Assembly: GCF_001644025.1 (NCBI RefSeq)
Contig: NZ_LUUK01000044.1
Location: 1-49,280, forward strand
Direction: 5' to 3'
Source of the DNA: Methylomonas koyamae
GTDB lineage: Bacteria; Pseudomonadota; Gammaproteobacteria; Methylococcales; Methylomonadaceae
DNA: 49,280 bases
Positions 10,904 through 21,712 of the stretch are shown here, one piece after another. The translations under genes and the position numbers were made by a program. Position 1 is the first letter of the stretch. Each line of letters starts with the position of its first letter. The notes beneath the pieces were generated by a model. That model did not search any database. It was not told where the DNA came from and was given only the letters and a program-made list of their open reading frames with translations.

Positions 10904-13015
10904 ATGACTGATCTATCGCTTTATAGAAACATCGGGATCTTCGCTCACGTCGATGCCGGTAAAACCACCACGACCGAGCGGATTCTCAAGCTGACCGGAA
11001 AAATCCATAAAATCGGCGAAGTACACGATGGTGCGGCGACCACAGACTTCATGGTGCAAGAGCAAGAACGCGGTATCACCATCCAATCGGCCGCGACCAC
11101 CTGCATGTGGCCGGGTAGTACCAACCAGTTTCCGGCACACCGTTTCAACATCATCGACACCCCGGGCCACGTCGACTTTACGATCGAAGTGTATCGTTCG
11201 CTGAAAGTGTTGGACGGCGGTATCGGCGTATTCTGCGGCTCCGGTGGCGTTGAACCTCAATCGGAAACTAACTGGCGCTATGCGAACGACTCCAAAGTCG
11301 CTCGCGTTATCTATGTCAACAAACTGGACCGTTTGGGCGCGAACTTCTATCGCGTCGTCAAGCAAGTCGAGGACGTATTGGGTGCCAAACCAGTGGTTAT
11401 GACCCTGCCGATCGGCGAGGAAGAAAACTTTGTCGGTGTGATCGACTTATTGACCCGCAAAGCCTGGATTTGGGATAACTCCGGCGACCCGTTGAAATAT
11501 GAAATCCAAGACGTGCCGGCCGATATGGTCGAGCAAGTCGAAGAATGGCGCGCCAAACTGATCGACCAAGTCGCCGATCAAGACGACGACATCATGGAAA
11601 AATATCTGGAAGGCGAAGAGCCGACCATCGAAGAAATCAAAAAGTGTATCCGCAAGGGCACCATCGCGATGGATTTCTTCCCAACCTTTTGCGGCTCTTC
11701 GTTCAAAAACAAAGGCGTGCAATTGGTATTGGACGGCGTCGTCGAATACCTGCCGAACCCGACCGAAGTCAATCCGCAACCGGAAACCGACATCGAAGGC
11801 GTGCCAACCGGCGAACACGCGATTGTCGACCCCGAGCGCCCATTCCGCGGCCTGGTGTTCAAAATCATGGACGACCGTTTCGGTGCGCTGAACTTCGTAC
11901 GTATTTATTCCGGCAAACTGAAAAAAGGCGACACCGTCTTGAACACCTACACCGGCAAAACCGAGCGGGTAGGCCGGATGGTGGAAATGCACGCCGACGA
12001 CCGTAACGAAATCGAAACCGCGCAAGCCGGTGACATCGTCGCGCTGATCGGTTTGAAAAGCGTGCAAACCGGTCACACCTTGTGCGATCCGGACAAACCG
12101 GCCACATTGGAGCCAATGGTATTCCCTGACCCCGTTATCTCGATTGCGATTTCGCCGAAAGACAAGGGCAGCAACGAGAAAATGGGCATCGCGATCGGCA
12201 AAATGGTCGCCGAAGACCCGTCTTTCCGCGTCGAAACCGACCAGGAATCCGGCGAAACCATCATCAAAGGCATGGGCGAGCTGCACTTAGACATTAAAGT
12301 GGACATCCTGAAACGGACCCACGGTGTCGAAGTGAACGTCGGTAAACCACAGGTGGCTTACCGCGAAACCATCACCAAACGTATCGAAGACGAATACGTC
12401 CACAAAAAACAATCCGGCGGTTCAGGGCAATACGCGAAAATCAACTACATCATCGAACCCGGCGAACCCGGCAGCGGCTTCCAATTCGAATCCTCGGTTG
12501 TCGGCGGTAACGTACCTCGCGAATACTGGCCAGCCGTCGAAAAAGGTTTCAAAGCCAGTATCGAGAAAGGTGTATTGGCGGGCTTCCCTTGCTTGGACTT
12601 CAAAGTCAACCTGACCGACGGTGCGTTCCACGCGGTTGACTCGTCATCCATCGCGTTCGAAATCGCCGCCCGCGCCGCGTATCGTCAATCGATTCCGAAA
12701 GCCGGTCCGCAATTGCTGGAACCGATCATGAAAGTCGACGTGTTCACACCGGAAGCACACGTGGGCGACGTGATCGGCGACTTGAACCGCCGCCGCGGCA
12801 TGATCAAATCCCAAGATCCAGGCGTCACCGGCGTTCGCATCAAAGCGGACGTACCGCTGAGCGACATGTTCGGTTACATCGGCGACTTGCGGACGATGAC
12901 CTCCGGTCGCGGCCAATTCTCGATGGAATTCTCGCATTACATCGCCTGCCCGAAAAACGTGGCCGACGAAGTGATCAAGGAAGTCAACGAACGCAACAAA
13001 AACAAAGACAAGTAA
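10904..13015 (+). CDS. fusA: Elongation factor G, stand-alone second copy type (EF-G2)
   Basis: Ribosomal translocase-type GTPase of 703 residues. G1 is AHVDAGKTT (about 14-22), the switch region is [11 protein letters not shown]3 is DTPGH and G4 is NKLD. Domains II to V follow through [12 protein letters not shown]. The sequence ([13 protein letters not shown] start, [19 protein letters not shown]) fits the EF-G paralogue carried outside the str operon in many Gammaproteobacteria, rather than the copy linked to rpsL-rpsG-tuf, none of which is seen here. It is monocistronic, with a strong terminator directly downstream. Whether it acts in elongation, in recycling or as a back-up under stress cannot be read from the sequence. 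Confidence 0.93.
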
Positions 13016-13022
13016 ACAGTGG

Positions 13023-13062
13023 GGCTGCCCCGAGACCGCAAGGTCTCCGAGCAGCCTTTTTT
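13023..13062 (+). terminator. Rho-independent terminator after EF-G
   Basis: GGCTGC...GAGACC pairs with GGTCTC...GCAGCC around a GCAA loop, with a small internal bulge, and is followed by six T residues. It starts seven bases after the EF-G stop codon. Confidence 0.9.
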
Positions 13063-13157
13063 GCGATTTGGCCGCCTGTCTTTCAGGCGTCTCTTTAACG
13101 ATAAAGCTTGCGCGATGTACGTCAGCTTAATCCCGCACCCCACTTTGGGAGAACACT

Positions 13158-13481
13158 ATGGCATTTGTAATTACCGAAAACTGCATCAAATGCAAATATA
13201 CCGATTGCGTCGACGTATGCCCTGTCGACTGCTTTCACGAAGGACCCAACTTTCTGGTTATCGATCCGGACGAATGCATCGATTGCACGCTGTGCGAACC
13301 GGAATGCCCGGCCGGTGCGATTCACGCCGAAGATGAGCTGCCGGAAGGCCAAGAGCACTTCGCGGCGTTGAACGCCGAATTGGCCAAAACCTGGCCGTTG
13401 ATCACAGAAGTCAAGGACGCGATGCCGGACGCCGACGAATGGAACGGCAAGCCGGACAAATTTAAATTGCTGGAAAAATAA
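13158..13481 (+). CDS. fdxA: 7Fe ferredoxin FdxA ([3Fe-4S][4Fe-4S])
   Basis: Small cytosolic electron carrier of 107 residues. Cysteines fall at 9, 12, 17, 21, 25, 40, 43, 46 and 50. Allowing for the initiator Met, this matches the Azotobacter ferredoxin I pattern: C9, C17 and C50 would hold the [3Fe-4S] cluster and C21, C40, C43 and C46 the [4Fe-4S] cluster, with C25 the extra free cysteine. The C-terminal extension [20 protein letters not shown] is typical of the family. GGGAGAA lies directly upstream of the ATG. It is separated from EF-G by a terminator and so has its own promoter. Confidence 0.96.
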
Positions 13482-13497
13482 TCCGTTACGGGATACA

Positions 13498-13526
13498 GGG
13501 AGCGCCGCGACATCGCTGGCGCTCCC
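13498..13526. terminator. Intergenic hairpin between convergent fdxA and RRM gene
   Basis: A perfect nine-base stem (GGGAGCGCC with GGCGCTCCC) around an eleven-base loop, lying between two convergent genes. It has no T-run on either strand, so it may serve as a transcript 3'-end stabiliser or a weak bidirectional terminator. Confidence 0.45.
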
Positions 13527-13557
13527 CGCCAACAACGTAGGCTAACGCTTTAAAGCA

Positions 13558-14268
13558 TCAAATCTCGCCTTTCTCGACGACCGGCATGATCCAATAATGG
13601 ATACCCGAGCCGGCGAACTCCGCCTTTAAGCGCTCCAAAAGCGCGGAAATCACAATTTTTTCCGAGTAAATCTGAAAACTGGTATTTCTGGGCTCTGCTT
13701 CGTCATGCTCGCTCGGCAGCTTGACGATTTTGTGACTGGCCGCGTCCCCGTTCAAGCGCATGGTTTCGAACTCGTCCAAACACTCCATCACCGCCGCTTC
13801 CATATCGCCGGGCACGACAAACGAAATCGAAAACTGCTGATGCTGTAGCGTGTTGACAAAGTCGTCCTCGCTATTGAATCGATCCGACGCATTTTTGACG
13901 ACTTGCAGAAATTTGCCGCGCCGCCGGTCTCCCTTGCGTTTTTCGACAAATTCGTTATCGGCTCGCTGATGCTGCCGGGGATCGTTATACCAACTGCGAT
14001 GGTAATAAGGTCTAACGACCACCATCCGGCCGTTGAAGCGCCGGTTTTTCAAACCCTTGATGACCCGCTGCACGGTCAACTCCGAATCCAGCGTCACCAA
14101 GCCGTGATACTCCATGGAACCGAAGCGACTGTCTTGCAGTGCCAGAATCTGCACGTCCACTATCCGGCCCGGCTTCAGGAAAAAGCCGCTTTTCAAGGCA
14201 GGACTAATGAATTCGGTAATTTCAGAGTGTCTGGTGTTGGCCGGAATTCTTCTCAGAAATATGTTCAT
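13558..14268 (-). CDS. RRM domain fused to a DUF3240-like domain
   Basis: A 236-residue protein with two recognisable parts. Residues about 1-90 form an RNA-recognition motif: RNP2-like IFLRRIPANT at the start, RNP1-like YHGLVTLDSE near 60, and FNGRMVVVRPYYHRS closing the fold. A basic linker (KRKGDRRRGKF) follows. The last ~95 residues parallel the stand-alone DUF3240 protein encoded directly upstream: its ending FQIYSEKIVISALLERLKAE then FAGSGIHYWIMPVVEKGEI aligns with the neighbour's end with about 22 of 39 identities. The start at MNIFLRRIP is chosen because it begins the RRM; its ribosome-binding site is weak. It is the last gene on the metal-efflux strand, 86 bases after the DUF3240 stop. 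RNA or single-strand binding is inferred from the RRM only. Confidence 0.75.
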   Translation of the reverse strand: MNIFLRRIPANTRHSEITEFISPALKSGFFLKPGRIVDVQILALQDSRFGSMEYHGLVTLDSELTVQRVIKGLKNRRFNGRMVVVRPYYHRSWYNDPRQHQRADNEFVEKRKGDRRRGKFLQVVKNASDRFNSEDDFVNTLQHQQFSISFVVPGDMEAAVMECLDEFETMRLNGDAASHKIVKLPSEHDEAEPRNTSFQIYSEKIVISALLERLKAEFAGSGIHYWIMPVVEKGEI

Positions 14269-14354
14269 CGGTTCGCTTGCAAAGTGACAGGGTCGGTTTT
14301 TTAAACATACGAGACAACTGTAGCATTCCGTACTGAATTCTGCATACCTCGCGG

Positions 14355-14660
14355 TCAGATTTTTCCGCGCTCCAATGCCGGCAACAACCAATACTTTAAG
14401 CCGGCGCCCGCGAAGTCCGCTTTTAGCTTAGTCAATAACCCGGAAATGTTGGTTTTTTCGATAAAAATTTGAAAGCGGACCTTGCGCCGATAACCGCTGA
14501 CCTGCTCGGCCAGCGACAGGCCCTGGTCGTCCGCGTCGTGGATATTCGCCGGCATACAGGAAAAACTTTGCCGCCACGCCAACGCCAATAAAAAGTCCAC
14601 GAATTGCTCCTCCAAATCCGGTGGAACGTCGACCATTAGCAGATAAGCCTCATGATTCAT
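14355..14660 (-). CDS. DUF3240 (PII-like fold) protein linked to metal efflux
   Basis: A 101-residue soluble protein ending KVRFQIFIEKTNISGLL then TKLKADFAGAGLKYWLLPALERGKI, the DUF3240 signature. The family is small and trimeric-PII-like by predicted fold, and is commonly encoded next to CzcA/CusA pumps, as here: its ATG overlaps the stop of the czcA-type gene (ATGA). A role in sensing metal or a nucleotide to modulate the pump is inference. No metal-ligand cluster beyond single His and Cys residues is visible. A second copy of the domain is fused to an RRM in the next gene. Confidence 0.82.
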   Translation of the reverse strand: MNHEAYLLMVDVPPDLEEQFVDFLLALAWRQSFSCMPANIHDADDQGLSLAEQVSGYRRKVRFQIFIEKTNISGLLTKLKADFAGAGLKYWLLPALERGKI

Positions 14661-17600
14661 TCAGCGGTCTCCTCGCCGCACCCGTAAGCACGATATAGTA
14701 TTGGCAACAAAATCAGCGTGAGTAGCGTCGACGACACCAGCCCTCCGGTGACCACGATGGCCAAGGGCCGTTGCACTTCCGAGCCAGGCCCCGAGGCGAA
14801 CAATAGCGGAATCAAGCCGAACGCGGCGATACTAGCCGTCATTAGCACCGGACGCAGCCTACGGCAAGAACCGACAATCACGACGCGCGACAATTCCATA
14901 CCGGTCGCGCATAGCTGATTAAAGTAACTGACCATCACCACGCCATTCAATACCGCGATACCGAGCAGCGCGATAAAACCCACCGAGGCCGGCACCGACA
15001 AATATTCCCCGGATAACCACAGTCCGAACACGCCGCCCACCATCGCCAACGGAATGTTAGACAACACCAGTAAGGCTTGCCGCACCGAACCGAAGGTCGA
15101 AAACAGTAATAGGAAGATCAAGCCAAGCGCCAACGGGATCACCAAACCGAGCCGGGCTGCGGCGCGTTGTTGGTTCTCGAACTGACCGCCGAATTCGACG
15201 TGAAAACCGGTCGGCAGTCGGACACGTTCCGCGACCGTCTTGCGAGCCTCTTCGACGAAACCGACCAGATCGCGCTCTTCGACATTGCAGCGAATCACGA
15301 CAAAACGCTGGCCTTTTTCCCGATCTATCGACACCACGCCTTCTACCGCTTCGATTTTCGCTACCGCCGAAATCGGTATGTGGCTGCCGCTCGGCAGCGT
15401 AATTTGCAAATTATCGAAATTCGCGGTGTTGCTGGCGCCGCGCAGTAACAGAGGTGTGCGCTTGACGCCTTCTTGAACGATGCCGAGCTGCAAACCTTCT
15501 ATCTGCGCTCTGAGCAGATTCTCGATGCCTTCGGCATCCAAACCGTAGCGACCGGCGGCCGACCGGTCGATTTTCAATTGCAGAAATTGCATGCCTTCGT
15601 TCTTGCGAGTGAAGACGTCGCTGGCGCCGGGTATTGTCTTCAATACCGCTTCGATTTCCTCCGCCTTATGATTCAATACATTCAGATCGCTGCCGAACAG
15701 CTTGATCGCCACGTCGCCGCGCGTACCGGTCAACATCTCGGAAACCCGCATTTCGATGGGCTGGGTAAAGCCGAACGCAATACCCGGCGTGTGCGGCATG
15801 ACCTTGCGGATTTCCTCGATCAGCGCTTCCTTGGTATGCATCCGCCATTCGGCTTTCGGTTTCAGAATTAAAAAGGTATCCGTGTCGTTGAGGCTCATCG
15901 GATCCAAACCCAATTCGTCGGTGCCGACCCTGGACACCACGTGAGCCACTTCCGGAACATGCTCGAGAATGTTTTTCTGCACCCGCACATCCAGCGCCAC
16001 CGAATCCGCCAACGTAATCGACGGCAATTTTTCGAGTTGCACGATAATGTCGCCTTCGTCCATCGTCGGTATGAAAGTGCTGCCGATTCGACTGAAAACC
16101 AGTAGCGTTGCCAGCAATAATCCTCCCGCGACGATAAACACCGTTTTGGCGTTCGCCAAACACCACGCCAACACCGGCTGATACAAAGCCAGTAATTTAC
16201 GCGGCAGCCAAGGCTCTTCGTGCGACACATTCTTCAACAGAAACGAGGCCAACACCGGAATCACCGTCAGCGACAACAACAAGGAACCGCTCAGCGCGAA
16301 CACGATCGTCATCGCGACCGGGCCGAACAATTTGCCTTCCAGCCCTTGCAGCGTCAACAACGGCAAAAATACGATGACAATGATCAGGATGCCCGACGTC
16401 ACCGGCGCGGCGACTTCCCGGGTCGCCCGATAAATCAGGTGCAGGCGCGGCAAACGCTCGGCTTTACGATGGTCGGCGAGTTGGGTAATGATGTTTTCGA
16501 CAACCACGACGGCACCGTCCACCAGCATGCCGATCGCAATCGCCAAGCCGCCCAGACTCATTAGATTGGCCGACATGCCGAAGGCCTGCATCAGGATAAA
16601 CGTTATCAGCGCCGCCATCGGCAGTGCCAAGGCCACGGTTACAGCGGCCCGCAAATCGCCCAGAAACACAATCAGCAGAATCACGACCAGGACGATCGCT
16701 TCGAGCAGCGCCTGGGATACGGTCGCGACCGCCTTGCCGACCAACACGCCCCGGTTGTAAAACACATTGATCTTGACGCCTTCAGGCAAACTGGGCTGCA
16801 ATTGCGCCAATTTCTCCTCTAGCAGCGCGATGGTCTGCCGAGCATTGGCGCCGCGTAAGCCCAGCACCACCGCGGTGACCGCCTCGCCGAGTCCATCCTT
16901 ACTGACCGCGCCGTAACGGGTCAGCGCGCCTATCCTGATTTCGGCGACATCTTCTATTTTGACCGGCAGACCGTCGCGCTCGGCGACCACTATCGTCGCG
17001 ATGTCGTGCTCGTCGCGAATCCGGCCTTCCGCACGGACGATCAGTGCCTCCTCGCCCTCGGTCAAGCGCCCCGCGCCATCGTTGGCATTGTTTTTCTTCA
17101 AGGCCGCGCTGAGTTGTGCGATGTCGATATGGCGTGCCGCCATTCGAATGTTGTCCGGCACCACTTCGAAGCTGCGAACCTCGCCGCCCAAGGCGTTGAC
17201 ATCCGCCACGCCCTTAACGGTCCGCAAGGCCGGCCGTATCGTCCAATCGAGCAGCTCGCGGCGCTGCATCAAACTTAAATCGCCGCCTTCGATCGCGAAC
17301 ATGAACATCTCGCCGAGCGGCGTCGTCATTGGCGCGATACCGCCCTGAACCCCTTCCGGCAAGTTGCCCCAAATCCCGTTCAGCCGCTCCGCCACCTGTT
17401 GCCGCGCCCAATAAATATCGGTGCCTTCCTCGAAATCGAGCGTAATATCGGTGATCGCGTACTTGGCTAGCGAGCGCAGCATGACTTGGTGGGGAATGCC
17501 CAGCAACTCGACTTCGACGGGCGCGGTAATTCTGGCTTCGACCTCTTCCGGTGTCATGCCGTTGGCCTTGACGATAATTTTGACCTGAGTTGGCGACACC

Positions 17601-17719
17601 TCCGGAAACGCGTCGATCGGGATATTGGTGAACGCGTAATAGCCGCCGCCGGTCAGCAACGCGACCGCCAGCATGACCAACAGGCGCTGGATCAGCGCAA
17701 AGCGGATCAAGCCGGCCAT
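14657..17719 (-). CDS. czcA: Heavy-metal efflux RND permease (CzcA/CusA family)
   Basis: Inner-membrane proton antiporter of 1020 residues that exports divalent or monovalent metal through a CzcCBA-type tripartite channel. It begins MAGLIRFALIQRLLVMLAVALL with the first helix, then PIDAFPEVSPTQVKI, and carries GMLVDGAVVVVENI in the fourth helix, with the Asp and Glu typical of metal RND pumps, in contrast to the DD motif of the drug-type pump at the left end. The porter segment GTDELGLDPMSLNDTDTF resembles Czc/Cnr-type rather than Cus-type pumps, suggesting Zn/Co/Cd/Ni rather than Cu/Ag; this is inference. Upstream the adaptor gene overlaps by one base (TAATG). Confidence 0.92.
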   Translation of the reverse strand: MAGLIRFALIQRLLVMLAVALLTGGGYYAFTNIPIDAFPEVSPTQVKIIVKANGMTPEEVEARITAPVEVELLGIPHQVMLRSLAKYAITDITLDFEEGTDIYWARQQVAERLNGIWGNLPEGVQGGIAPMTTPLGEMFMFAIEGGDLSLMQRRELLDWTIRPALRTVKGVADVNALGGEVRSFEVVPDNIRMAARHIDIAQLSAALKKNNANDGAGRLTEGEEALIVRAEGRIRDEHDIATIVVAERDGLPVKIEDVAEIRIGALTRYGAVSKDGLGEAVTAVVLGLRGANARQTIALLEEKLAQLQPSLPEGVKINVFYNRGVLVGKAVATVSQALLEAIVLVVILLIVFLGDLRAAVTVALALPMAALITFILMQAFGMSANLMSLGGLAIAIGMLVDGAVVVVENIITQLADHRKAERLPRLHLIYRATREVAAPVTSGILIIVIVFLPLLTLQGLEGKLFGPVAMTIVFALSGSLLLSLTVIPVLASFLLKNVSHEEPWLPRKLLALYQPVLAWCLANAKTVFIVAGGLLLATLLVFSRIGSTFIPTMDEGDIIVQLEKLPSITLADSVALDVRVQKNILEHVPEVAHVVSRVGTDELGLDPMSLNDTDTFLILKPKAEWRMHTKEALIEEIRKVMPHTPGIAFGFTQPIEMRVSEMLTGTRGDVAIKLFGSDLNVLNHKAEEIEAVLKTIPGASDVFTRKNEGMQFLQLKIDRSAAGRYGLDAEGIENLLRAQIEGLQLGIVQEGVKRTPLLLRGASNTANFDNLQITLPSGSHIPISAVAKIEAVEGVVSIDREKGQRFVVIRCNVEERDLVGFVEEARKTVAERVRLPTGFHVEFGGQFENQQRAAARLGLVIPLALGLIFLLLFSTFGSVRQALLVLSNIPLAMVGGVFGLWLSGEYLSVPASVGFIALLGIAVLNGVVMVSYFNQLCATGMELSRVVIVGSCRRLRPVLMTASIAAFGLIPLLFASGPGSEVQRPLAIVVTGGLVSSTLLTLILLPILYRAYGCGEETAE

Positions 17720-18810
17720 TATTCGTCGCCCCCTAAACCCAACCAGTTAGCCTTCAACGCCACCGCGCCCTTGACGGCTATTTGCTCGTTACCGGTCAAC
17801 GGGCCGTTAACCAAAGTCACATCGGCTTGTTTACCAGCCACGCTGACCTCGGTCACCGCGAAGCCTTCGGCATTGCGCACGAATACATAACTATGGCCTT
17901 CGTTTTGCGCCAACGCGGTATTCGGTACCCGGAAACCGGTCTGACCACCGCCCAGCAGTTTGACGTTGACGCTTTGACCGACGCGTAAGCCCTCGGCCTT
18001 GCCATCGAGCACGGCCCGGGCGGCGACGGTTTGGTTATCTCGGTTGACGCTTTGGCCCAGCAAAGCAACGCGGGCGACGATACCGCTATCTTCGACGCCG
18101 ACGCTGTCGCCAATCTTGACCTGCCCCATCCGTTCTTGCGGAATATTGATTTCCAGCCACAATTGCGAGAGATCGGCGACCCGGAACAGCGGCGTCTGCA
18201 TATCCAATCGACTGCCCAACACCACCAGCCGTTCCAATACCACGCCATCCAGCGGAGAGCGGATCGCCAGTTGGTTATTCAAGCGCTTGGTTTTCGCCAG
18301 TTGCTTAATTTCGCCAACCGACATGCCCGCAAGCTCGAGCAATTGTCTGGTTTCATCGGCCTTGGCCGATTTGCTGCCATGCAACACTTCGGTTTCTTGC
18401 AAACGCCGTTCGGCGATCACGCCTTCCTGCAATAACTTTTGGTCGCGCCCTTGCTCGATATCGGCCAAATTATGCTCGCTACCGGCCGTCAAATAAGCCT
18501 GTTGCAAACCAACCAACTCCGGGCTGTTCAACGTGGCCAGCACCTGCCCCTTGACCACCCGATCGCCAATATTGACGTGAATTTTAGTGACCAGACCCGC
18601 CACGCTGCTGGCGACCAGCGCTTCGCGATCGGCCGGCACAGTCACGCGCGCCGGCGCGTAAAACAGCGGGATGTTCGAGCCGGCGGCAAGAGGCGCCACT
18701 CGCACATCCAGATTGTCGATTTGCTGTTGGGACATGCGAATTTGCGAGAGTTCCGCGCTCGCCTGTCCGCAAGACACGATAAAAAAACCGCACAAAAACA
18801 TCGATCTCAC
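17719..18810 (-). CDS. czcB: Heavy-metal efflux periplasmic adaptor (CzcB family)
   Basis: Bridges the CzcA-type pump and the outer-membrane channel. The 363-residue protein has an N-terminal export signal MRSMFLCGFFIVSCGQASA; IVSC is a loose lipobox (Cys14), but cleavage after QASA is equally plausible. The two lipoyl halves (VASSVAGLVTKIHVNIGDRV near 70-90 and IRSPLDGVVLERLVVLGSRL near 185-205) flank a helical hairpin, and beta-barrel and C-terminal domains follow. It overlaps the channel gene by ATGA and czcA by one base, so the three are coupled. Confidence 0.9.
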   Translation of the reverse strand: MRSMFLCGFFIVSCGQASAELSQIRMSQQQIDNLDVRVAPLAAGSNIPLFYAPARVTVPADREALVASSVAGLVTKIHVNIGDRVVKGQVLATLNSPELVGLQQAYLTAGSEHNLADIEQGRDQKLLQEGVIAERRLQETEVLHGSKSAKADETRQLLELAGMSVGEIKQLAKTKRLNNQLAIRSPLDGVVLERLVVLGSRLDMQTPLFRVADLSQLWLEINIPQERMGQVKIGDSVGVEDSGIVARVALLGQSVNRDNQTVAARAVLDGKAEGLRVGQSVNVKLLGGGQTGFRVPNTALAQNEGHSYVFVRNAEGFAVTEVSVAGKQADVTLVNGPLTGNEQIAVKGAVALKANWLGLGGDE

Positions 18811-20111
18811 GGCGCTACTCCTACTGCCTGATTATAAAAGGCGATATTGCGTTCCAACTTGACCTCTTGCAGCTTGGCGTTACGAATCGCCTCCAAGGCT
18901 CTGGCTTGAATTTTTAACAAATCCAGCAGGTTGATCTCGCCGGCCGAGAAACTGATCTCGGTCATCTTCAAATGGGTTTCGGCGATGTCTTTCAGTTCGT
19001 TGGCAATGGCCAGTTCCGCGCGGGTCACTTCCAGCGCATGCTCGGCTTCGTGCAAATTCTTTTCGAGCTGCCGGTACAAATGTTCGCGTTGGGCCATCGC
19101 ATTGTTCAACTCCAGATTAGCCTTGGCGATTTCCGGCGCGTTGTAAGCATCGCCACCAAACAGCATGACGACGTTCACACCCACGCTTTCGACATTCTGC
19201 CCGCCCCGGCCGTCGCGTTGGCTCTTTGCGCCTACGCCTAGTTTCGGCTGGTTGATCGGATCGGTCGTGCGTATCCATTCGACCTCGGCGCGCCGCCGCT
19301 CGATGATGGCGTTGATGGCATCCAACATCGGATGATCGTTGGCGACCGTGGTAATCTCGCTCTGGCGTTCGCGATAGCTACTCGGCACCTTGGTCAGTGT
19401 CGTGAGATTGGTGTAGGCCTTGCGGCTGTGCATGACTTCGGCTTCCGCCTGCGTCACCAGCGCCCGATTTTGCAAATATTCGCCCTTGGCCAAAAGCAAG
19501 TCGGCGCGCGGCAAATCGCCCAGCTCGACCCGGCGCTCGACCTTTTTCATCAATTGCTCGGAGATCGATAGCGCGTTTTGCGCCTGCTGCAAGCCGATGT
19601 TGGCAATTTCCATATTCCACAAGGCATCGCGCACCAGCCGAACGACTTCCAACTTAACCGCTGCCAGTTGTTTTTGCGCGGCCGCGCCGGCGCGATCCGC
19701 CACGACCTGACCTGCTTCGCGCTGCCCCCATTTCCAGGTGGTGATCTCCACTTGGGCCGACGCTTCCCGCGAACCCAGATCGTCGGCGATCCGATCATCC
19801 ATGTAACCCAATTGCAAGGCCGTGGAACCCGCCACCCAGCTGTCGCTACGCTCGGTCAGAGCCTCGGCCTCCTGGCTCAAGGCCTCGCTGATCAAGCGGT
19901 CGGGGTATTTTTCCAAGGTTTGTTCGATCAAGCCCGGTAAACTCAGTTGCGGATCGGTTTCTATCGGATCGAGATGCTCGACGATCATCGGCCCCGCCGA
20001 CATTGCGTGAACGGGCGGCGGTAACTCAGTGGCCGGCGGCTCCGCCCAACACGCGCCAGCTGACAACAACGCGCCGAACAACGCGTTTGGAATATGACGA
20101 AATCCGGTCAT
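18807..20111 (-). CDS. czcC: Outer-membrane efflux channel, TolC/CzcC family
   Basis: Outer-membrane and periplasmic tunnel of the metal efflux complex. The 434-residue product starts MTGFRHIPNALFGALLSAGACWA, a signal peptide ending before EPPATELPPP. It shows the duplicated long-helix pattern of the family, with coiled-coil blocks around 100-260 and 320-430 and the beta-strand motif PKLGVGAKSQRD. The start was chosen for GGAGAAAAAT just before the ATG; an upstream in-frame ATG would bury the signal peptide. It is the first gene of the czcCBA unit, 117 bases downstream of a small secreted-protein gene. Confidence 0.88.
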   Translation of the reverse strand: MTGFRHIPNALFGALLSAGACWAEPPATELPPPVHAMSAGPMIVEHLDPIETDPQLSLPGLIEQTLEKYPDRLISEALSQEAEALTERSDSWVAGSTALQLGYMDDRIADDLGSREASAQVEITTWKWGQREAGQVVADRAGAAAQKQLAAVKLEVVRLVRDALWNMEIANIGLQQAQNALSISEQLMKKVERRVELGDLPRADLLLAKGEYLQNRALVTQAEAEVMHSRKAYTNLTTLTKVPSSYRERQSEITTVANDHPMLDAINAIIERRRAEVEWIRTTDPINQPKLGVGAKSQRDGRGGQNVESVGVNVVMLFGGDAYNAPEIAKANLELNNAMAQREHLYRQLEKNLHEAEHALEVTRAELAIANELKDIAETHLKMTEISFSAGEINLLDLLKIQARALEAIRNAKLQEVKLERNIAFYNQAVGVAP

Positions 20112-20228
20112 ATTTTTCTCCGAAAATGTAGGTATGCAGAAATCCAGAATACCCGATTTGAAACGGGTGAGCGCCAAAATACCGAGCTTGGCCGAAGCAA
20201 GCCGGACGTCAGCGCGACGTTTGACTAA

Positions 20229-20621
20229 TCAACAGGGAGGCGCGCGAGAAGAATGGAGACTAACACCGGGCTGGATGAGTTCCGGAGGGGGATCGAGACG
20301 ACGGAATACCAAAGTCGCAGACGCTAGCGGTGCTGGGCCGAATATCGACGTGTCGAACGCATGGGAAAGGTTATCGGCGTAAAATAACGGTAAATTGAGC
20401 TTAATTGCCGAACCGACTTCAACCACGGCACTTTGCGCATGGAGCTCGTGATGGATATGGGCCAGCACTTCGTCGGCGTTCGCGGCACGCCATTGCTCGA
20501 ATTCATGCAAATGCCAGCCGCCGACACCGACTTCATCGCCGACATGCGCATGCACCAGCGGGGCTACCAATTGCAGCAACACCAAAAACACCACGAGAAA
20601 CCGACGCAAGAATGCAACCAT
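20229..20621 (-). CDS. Small His-rich secreted protein upstream of czcCBA (CzcI-like)
   Basis: A 130-residue predicted periplasmic protein. It begins MVAFLRRFLVVFLVLLQLVAPLVHA, a clean signal peptide. The mature part opens HVGDEVGVGGWHLHEFEQW and continues with VLAHIHHELHAQS, giving a cluster of seven to eight histidines in about 45 residues, compatible with metal binding. Small proteins at this position in czc operons are often called CzcI and are thought to modulate induction; I make this call from position and composition, not from a firm family motif. It is the first gene on this strand, divergent from the Tim44-like gene. The ribosome-binding site is weak, so the start could differ. Confidence 0.6.
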   Translation of the reverse strand: MVAFLRRFLVVFLVLLQLVAPLVHAHVGDEVGVGGWHLHEFEQWRAANADEVLAHIHHELHAQSAVVEVGSAIKLNLPLFYADNLSHAFDTSIFGPAPLASATLVFRRLDPPPELIQPGVSLHSSRAPPC

Positions 20622-20764
20622 TTTAATGTTTAATACTCTGTATGATGGCGGATTCAGGTAAGCTCGGGTTGTTGCCGTTGGCACGAACCGTTATTCTACT
20701 TGAAAAAGACGATCTTACCCCGACTATCGGCATAGACTTCAATCAACACCAGGTAAACCACAAC

Positions 20765-21712
20765 ATGAACAACAAAACGCGTACTTTAGCCGGCTTGCTG
20801 ATCGCAATGGCCTTGGCGTTCGGCGGCATTGACGCGGCCCACGCCAAGCGCATGGGCGGCGGCAAATCGTTCGGCAGTAAACCCAGTTACAGCACGCCGT
20901 ACCAGCGTCCCACACCCAGCGCGCCGACCAGCCAACCTATCCGCTCGCCGGCTCAGCAACAAGCCGCCGCGCAAAATCAGGCCGCCCGGCAAAACTGGGC
21001 CGGACGTGGTGGCCTGATGGGTATGCTGGGCGGATTGGCGTTGGGCGGCTTGCTCGGTTCGATGTTCTTCGGAGGCGCCTTCGAGGGTCTCAATTTGATG
21101 GATATCGCGCTATTCGCCGGCCTCGCCTTCCTCCTGTACCGGCTGTTCGCCGCCAAATCCGCGCGCCAGCCCGCCGTTGAAGGCGCGCATGCCCGCGAAG
21201 CTTACCCGCCCCAAGCAGATCCGGCGGACTACCGACAACCCGCGCAAAGCACGGCCGGTTTCAACACCGATTTATTATTCGGCAAGGGCAAGGCAGTCGG
21301 TAGCGCTCCGGCGCCGCAAGCCTTCGACGCCGGCAACCTGCCGGCCGGTTTCGACGCGAAAGTCTTTCTGAACGGCGCGCAAAACGTCTATCGACATTTG
21401 CAAGCGGCCTGGGACAACCGGGATCTGGCGGAAATCCGCAGCCTCACTACCGATAAAGTGTTCGCCGAGATACAGGAGCAGCTGCGCGCTTCCGGCGAAA
21501 CCCACAGCACCGAAGTGCTGGCGCTGACCGCTGAATTACTGGATGTCCGGGAAGTCGGTAGCGAACTGGAAGCCTCGGTGCTATTCGATGCCACGATCCG
21601 CGAAAACGGCGGTCAAGCGAACCCCGTAAGGGAAGCCTGGCATTTTACCAAACCGAAATTCAGTAATGAGCCGCGCTGGTATCTGGACGGTATCCAGCAA
21701 ATCGAGAATTGA
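20765..21712 (+). CDS. Tim44-like domain protein
   Basis: A 315-residue exported or membrane-anchored protein. It starts MNNKTRTLAGLLIAMALAFG with a signal sequence ending DAAHA. A low-complexity stretch rich in S, P, Q and A follows (KRMGGGKSFGSKPSYSTPYQ and on to about 75). Next come a glycine-rich hydrophobic segment (GLMGMLGGLALGGLLGSMFFGG) and a second helix (LNLMDIALFAGLAFLLYRLF). The C-terminal ~125 residues (FDAKVFLNGAQNVYRHLQAA onward) form the Tim44-like domain, related to the mitochondrial import motor protein and to bacterial lipoproteins of unknown function. It is followed three bases later by a methyltransferase gene. Confidence 0.85.
   Translation: MNNKTRTLAGLLIAMALAFGGIDAAHAKRMGGGKSFGSKPSYSTPYQRPTPSAPTSQPIRSPAQQQAAAQNQAARQNWAGRGGLMGMLGGLALGGLLGSMFFGGAFEGLNLMDIALFAGLAFLLYRLFAAKSARQPAVEGAHAREAYPPQADPADYRQPAQSTAGFNTDLLFGKGKAVGSAPAPQAFDAGNLPAGFDAKVFLNGAQNVYRHLQAAWDNRDLAEIRSLTTDKVFAEIQEQLRASGETHSTEVLALTAELLDVREVGSELEASVLFDATIRENGGQANPVREAWHFTKPKFSNEPRWYLDGIQQIEN

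Follow-up and report, generated by a model that had tools for sequence, protein, structure and literature searches.

What does a predicted RNA-binding domain do beside a metal pump? In Methylomonas koyamae, a gene downstream of the czcCBA genes encodes an RNA-recognition motif (RRM) joined to a diverged copy of DUF3240, the same PII-like domain that the neighbouring gene encodes as a separate small protein. The stretch of DNA analysed, referred to here as the window, comprises 49,280 nucleotides of contig NZ_LUUK01000044.1 (assembly GCF_001644025.1). A first-pass annotation made from its letters had placed the open reading frames of both the fusion and the stand-alone DUF3240 correctly. The features of the locus are as follows:

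13558..14268, minus strand: fusion gene, 236 aa from ATG; RRM, basic linker and diverged DUF3240 (PII-like) domain
13975..14268, minus strand: RRM domain, fusion residues 1-98, by AlphaFold model, structure comparison and family profile
13852..13974, minus strand: basic linker, fusion residues 99-139, of low model confidence; family motif R111...R115-R116-R117-G118
13561..13848, minus strand: DUF3240 domain of the fusion, residues 141-236; shorter T-loop with its signature mostly gone; FQ, YW, P and G retained
14321..14343, minus strand: GCA-N15-TGCTA, a bipartite block 75 nt upstream of the fusion start; putative promoter-like element
14355..14660, minus strand: stand-alone DUF3240 (PII-like), 101 aa, overlapping the czcA stop by 4 nt
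14484..14546, minus strand: T-loop (strands 2-3) of the stand-alone DUF3240, residues 39-59, with H41, S49, E52-Q53-V54 and G56
14657..17719, minus strand: CzcA, RND pump subunit (Pfam)
17719..18810, minus strand: CzcB, membrane-fusion subunit (Pfam)
18807..20177, minus strand: CzcC, outer-membrane efflux subunit (Pfam)

The fusion gene starts 86 nt after the stand-alone DUF3240 gene. An alternative upstream TTG start would give a protein of 277 aa; the ATG start fits the alignment of most relatives. The AlphaFold model of the fusion, made as a single chain, consists of two babbab halves, the first of which aligns mostly with RRMs in structure comparison and the second with DUF3240 and other PII-like chains, including PstA, SbtB and CPII. 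Together with the family profiles described below, this confirms that an RRM and a DUF3240 domain share one protein.

Known targets of PII-superfamily proteins include enzymes, transporters and transcription factors. The reading of the locus tentatively favoured here is that the fusion assembles via its PII-like half and acts as an RNA-binding adaptor of the czc module. The fused PII-like domain would retain its fold and serve assembly, most likely in mixed trimers with the stand-alone DUF3240. The stand-alone protein, whose T-loop is intact, would do the sensing, dock on CzcA, or both. Several RNA-binding domains could in this way be gathered at the pump or at its nascent transcript, and an RNA, with the czc mRNA as the first candidate, would have its translation or its stability coupled to the state of the pump. 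Post-transcriptional control is plausible from the sequences, and the architecture suggests that Methylomonas cells link metal export to RNA. If so, the fusion would extend PII-superfamily action to RNA, and the unexplained DUF3240 gene, found after czcA in 73 of the 76 stand-alone copies examined, would gain a partner for testing its role.

The fusion is a property of one genus. Full-length copies occur in 28 of 37 Methylomonas genomes, the window's own counted, and in none of the 274 other genomes of the order among the matches listed (311 genomes searched), which extend below the score expected of a full-length fusion; in a sample of 274 genomes from the class, the window's own alone carries it. 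Nine Methylomonas genomes have no fusion: five of them have a stand-alone DUF3240 match (G129, G141, G143, G146 and G147) and four give no match at all (G125, G137, G145 and G148; 2.0-2.5 Mb, completeness 81-99%). The fused RRMs group together (SH-aLRT 97; 86 in a larger set), as do the fused DUF3240 domains (support 100/99), so that a single fusion event is the simplest account. The suggestion that a DUF3240 domain was duplicated and then joined to an RRM is supported by both domain trees and by BLASTP against the neighbouring protein. In seven of the 28 fusion loci the fusion is followed by another RRM gene. This order, D-[RD]-R, is compatible with tandem duplication of a DUF3240-RRM pair, by which D-R-D-R became D-[RD]-R.

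The association with the pump, proposed from the window alone, is upheld across the genus: in 27 of 28 cases the fusion gene comes immediately after czcA-DUF3240, shares its strand and is separated from the stand-alone DUF3240 by 86-314 nt. The exception is G136, in which the fusion and czcABC-DUF3240 are on different contigs. Outside Methylomonas the same RRM family is encoded as a separate gene. Among the RRM matches listed, 82 such loci were surveyed, of which 81 gave 82 RRM genes. Seven of these genes, from four genera, lie 4-238 bp downstream of DUF3240-czcA and are co-oriented with it (G043 and G111 of g16; G029, G053 and G090 of g29; G505 of g15; G541 of g20). Within the DNA fetched for the 82 loci, no other arrangement of an RRM gene near DUF3240 was found. 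It is likely that the fusion arose from this neighbourhood of a free RRM gene and czcA-DUF3240.

The same survey gives substance to the alternative that survives best, though it is rather unlikely: that the fusion is a general RNA-binding protein for many RNAs, like the cyanobacterial Rbp proteins, in which DUF3240 merely oligomerises and the position by the czc genes is an inherited neighbourhood. Outside the genus, 75 of the 82 RRM genes are not next to DUF3240 (five of the 75 had less than 500 bp of upstream DNA and are not judgeable), and 16 of the 82, among the matches listed, adjoin gmk, all on the opposite strand. In two loci, L035 and L036 (genomes G029 and G053), gmk, RRM, DUF3240 and czc genes occur together, as expected of an ancestral neighbourhood. 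The two RRM paralogues of the window genome lie away from DUF3240-czc, and the Methylomonas paralogues looked at occupy varied places. The basic job of the RRM family therefore need not concern metals. Against a general role for the fusion itself, the domain that was joined to the RRM is the pump's own small protein, nearly every copy has remained beside the pump, and wherever a free RRM gene lies near DUF3240 it is downstream and co-oriented. The tree, which is weak, does not separate shared descent of the neighbourhood from repeated association. A single clade of the czc-linked free RRMs was not recovered: they are scattered over the tree (five changes), and its strong branches force only one change. 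Besides L035 and L036, the gmk-adjoining loci are L044, L045, L046, L047, L049, L195, L196, L206, L214, L244, L245, L247, L249 and L250.

An RRM match had been predicted for residues 1-95, and this held for the family but not for the single sequence. Pfam finds no RRM in the window fusion on its own up to E 1, and an NCBIfam scan is likewise negative for RRM; the domain names OrtA, BRCA2_TR2 and FokI_D1 appeared with weak E-values and were set aside as chance. In an alignment of 39 members that includes the window fusion, RRM_1 is found at E<=0.1 in 20 (best 6.1e-4), and among 22 isolated RRM parts it is found at E<=0.01 in eight (best 7.9e-5). A profile built from the 22 parts retrieves 36 PDB sequences at E<=0.1, all of them RNA-binding or ribosomal by name, with a best E of 3.2e-8 for several domains summed and of 5.7e-5 for an entry with one significant stretch.

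Among RRMs whose RNP motifs are poor, some bind proteins and not RNA. The RRM fold of the fusion might be a protein-binding module, and the fusion an adaptor that docks other proteins on CzcA or DUF3240 with no RNA involved. This is unlikely. In its favour, alignment to RBMX places H55, L57 and L60 at positions 3, 5 and 8 of RNP1, so that aliphatic residues occupy positions 5 and 8, where aromatics are usual, and the failure of Pfam to recognise the window sequence as an RRM points the same way. On the other side, the RNP2 aromatic F4 and the RNP1 residue H55 persist in the fusions: H55 in all 39 aligned rows, and F4 in 37, the remaining two being gapped at that column. In the wider family (121 RRM rows) the H55 position carries His in 102 rows and Tyr in 16 (118 of 121 together), and the F4 position is Phe in just 69 and Ile in 38. 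Residues R91, N95, D96, R98, R111 and R116 are each retained in 117-121 of the 121 rows, among them two arginines of the tail (R111 in 119, R116 in 121). The RRM half is also strongly basic, with a computed pI of 10.6, as against 4.8 for the DUF3240 half. RNA binding by the RRM half is plausible on these residues and charges.

The second half is related to the neighbouring protein. The 22 identities reported for the last 39 residues are exact when counted on the two translations, and BLASTP extends the homology over the whole DUF3240 domain (35/102 identities, residues 141-236 against 1-101, E 2e-17). Pfam DUF3240 (PF11582) scores 20.4 bits on the window fusion (E 5.7e-4), 0.6 below the 21-bit cut-off, and it is found at E<=0.1 in all 39 aligned members (best 8.5e-6). 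A DUF3240/PII match to the C-terminal part is thus obtained by Pfam in the family, by BLASTP to the neighbour and by fold comparison. The fused domain is a diverged derivative and not an ordinary member of DUF3240. The T-loop of PII proteins, which lies between strands 2 and 3, contacts targets and ligands. A loop signature, H...S..EQV.G, was defined in this analysis from 38 distinct stand-alone copies (and, for EQV.G, PDB 3ce8, which retains EQV.GYR) and compared with 23 distinct fused copies; duplicate sequences were collapsed to one, and DUF3240 matches shorter than about 230 nt were dropped. In the stand-alone copies H41, S49, E52, V54 and G56 are each present in 38/38 and Q53 in 37/38. 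The fused copies fail this signature, with H41, S49 and V54 in 0/23, Q53 and G56 in 1/23 and E52 in 20/23, in an alignment that is uncertain across the loop. The C-terminal core is intact (Q64, F83, Y90, W91, P94 and G99 in 23/23).

Since the T-loop is where PII proteins meet targets and ligands, the fused copy has probably lost that role and kept assembly. This weakens the earlier suggestion of control by a metal or nucleotide sensed in the fused domain. Direct binding of a metal or nucleotide by the fused PII-like domain, which would then switch the RRM, is doubtful, even though the fold of that domain matches DUF3240, PstA, SbtB and CPII, several of which bind nucleotides by the titles of their entries. 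A changed T-loop need not abolish binding either (the title of entry 8zor names SbtB with a truncated T-loop in complex with SbtA), and the uncertain loop alignment also leaves this reading some room. The loss of the signature counts against it, as does the length of the loop between strands 2 and 3, which is 10 residues in the fused model and 21 in the stand-alone model, in a region where model confidence is low (the stand-alone model has a mean pLDDT of 82.9, and about 60-65 in the loop). A fused domain without the signature is less likely to be a metal or nucleotide sensor; assembly or docking is likelier. If there is any sensing, the stand-alone DUF3240 is the likelier site. Helix 1 of the fused domain is altered as well (the stand-alone V21 is found in 0/23 and D22 in 1/23 fused copies), so even trimer formation, on which the adaptor reading draws, may be changed.

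The gap upstream of the fusion gene holds a conserved element. The bipartite block GCA-N15-TGCTA occurs within 400 nt upstream of 25 of the 28 fusion genes, in 24 of these at 75-91 nt from the start, and is missing from the 400 nt upstream in L054, L068 and the unlinked L073. A looser pattern is found in 22 of the 24 distinct gaps (shuffles give 0.4 on average) and in 20 of 23 distinct fusions as against 2 of 98 other RRM upstream regions (200 nt each). The rest of the gap is little conserved across the genus. The block looks like a promoter, and shared ancestry contributes to its conservation. A scan for promoter and terminator consensus sequences over 13000-21500 found no more sites than in shuffles, so it is conservation that makes the block promoter-like. 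Transcription of the fusion gene probably starts at a promoter of its own, in which case the dose of the fusion could be set apart from that of the pump. No conserved RNA structure was detected in the gap (RNAalifold energy -0.35, over 22 of the 24 distinct gaps, the two longest omitted), and Rfam families in the window amount to one tRNA, with none in this gap.

Selection on the two halves was assessed as dN of the domain over dS of the gene for 351 pairs among 27 fusion loci (all but L011, of the window's own species); the pairs share branches and are non-independent. Purifying selection acts on both halves and is strongest among close relatives. In 31 close pairs from nine genomes (the window's own excluded), the median is 0.037 for the RRM and 0.041 for the fused DUF3240, with 0.061 for the neighbouring stand-alone DUF3240 on its own dS. 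A wider set of 80 pairs, from 24 loci, has medians of 0.044, 0.070 and 0.066, respectively, and its largest values are 0.15 for the RRM and 0.29 for the fused DUF3240. The window copy compared with L064 gives 0.10 for the RRM and 0.21 for DUF3240, at a nearly saturated dS of 1.47. Once the comparison goes past the closest relatives, the fused DUF3240 changes faster than the RRM, which is the more constrained half at distance. A chance fusion of neighbouring genes with no selected function could start from the free RRM genes that adjoin DUF3240 in some related genera, but these ratios, all well below 1 on both halves, speak strongly against it, as does its presence in most Methylomonas genomes, and it is highly improbable.

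Each half of the fusion has known counterparts. Stand-alone DUF3240 proteins such as PDB 3ce8 from Shewanella baltica match the C-terminal half in fold and sequence; the fused copy differs in being joined to an RRM, in having mostly lost the T-loop signature and in forming a separate clade. SbtB, CPII and PstA/DarA have the PII-like fold in common with the C-terminal half and with the stand-alone DUF3240, and they are absent from PDB sequence searches with both window proteins up to E 10. A likeness in genomic setting is seen in PII-NG (PF00543), for example GSU2134, a small PII-superfamily protein encoded with CzcABC, for which metal sensing has been proposed; the passages of that paper at hand mention no RNA-binding part (PMC7726332). 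Neither window protein has a PF00543 match up to E 1 in Pfam, which places them in a family other than PII-NG. On the RNA side, Synechocystis Rbp1-3 (PMC9333190) and Acinetobacter AB-Elavl (PMC9313427) are bacterial proteins with a single RRM, like that of the fusion. Passages on the latter describe prokaryotic RRM proteins as mainly of one domain of about 90 residues, with partly divergent RNP1 and RNP2 (PMC9313427); the RRM studied here differs in being joined to a signalling-type domain. Among open-licence papers, judged by titles and the beginnings of abstracts, no account of an RRM-DUF3240 fusion was found, and the word DUF3240 was found solely in an unrelated computational study of Helicobacter pylori islands (PMC8935386).

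A second fusion of the same RRM family occurs in genus g22, where a protein of about 455-460 aa ends in the RRM:

L095:7955-9319: putative cyclase-RRM gene, RRM C-terminal
L096:7581-8945: cyclase-RRM gene, RRM C-terminal; Pfam
L097:7114-8646: cyclase-RRM gene, RRM C-terminal; Pfam

The partner is a class III nucleotide cyclase domain (Pfam E 9.8e-22 in L096 and 3.7e-23 in L097). L095 resembles these two at its start, and G581 is known from its RRM match alone. The protein database holds 14 cyclase-RRM matches, all with PF00211. As in the RRM-DUF3240 protein, an RRM of this family is joined to a signalling domain; unlike it, the partner is a nucleotide cyclase and lies on the N-terminal side, and L095, L096 and L097 have no czc gene labels. 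A bolder version of the adaptor reading would have the stand-alone DUF3240 sense metal or the state of the pump, with mixed trimers switching RNA binding and so setting czc expression post-transcriptionally, and would make the cyclase-RRM protein a second, cyclic-nucleotide branch of one RNA-level signalling family in the Methylococcales; taken whole, it is unlikely. If the adaptor reading is true, this Methylococcales RRM family, which has been little described and is joined to a different signalling-type domain in each of two lineages, gains a function to seek.

Two minor observations concern neighbouring genes. At L002:1498-1926 (G000:C229) and L107:7339-7794, a free RRM paralogue lies directly behind a SulP-like transporter gene (family assigned by eye), and in L002 the RRM ATG is 11 nt past the stop of that gene. 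The notion that RRM paralogues follow transporters was dropped: one follows the SulP-like gene and the others have varied neighbours. In the window, a small His-rich, secreted-looking open reading frame (20229-20684, minus strand) lies upstream of czcC, and similar short frames were seen by eye ahead of czcC in at least 10 related loci.
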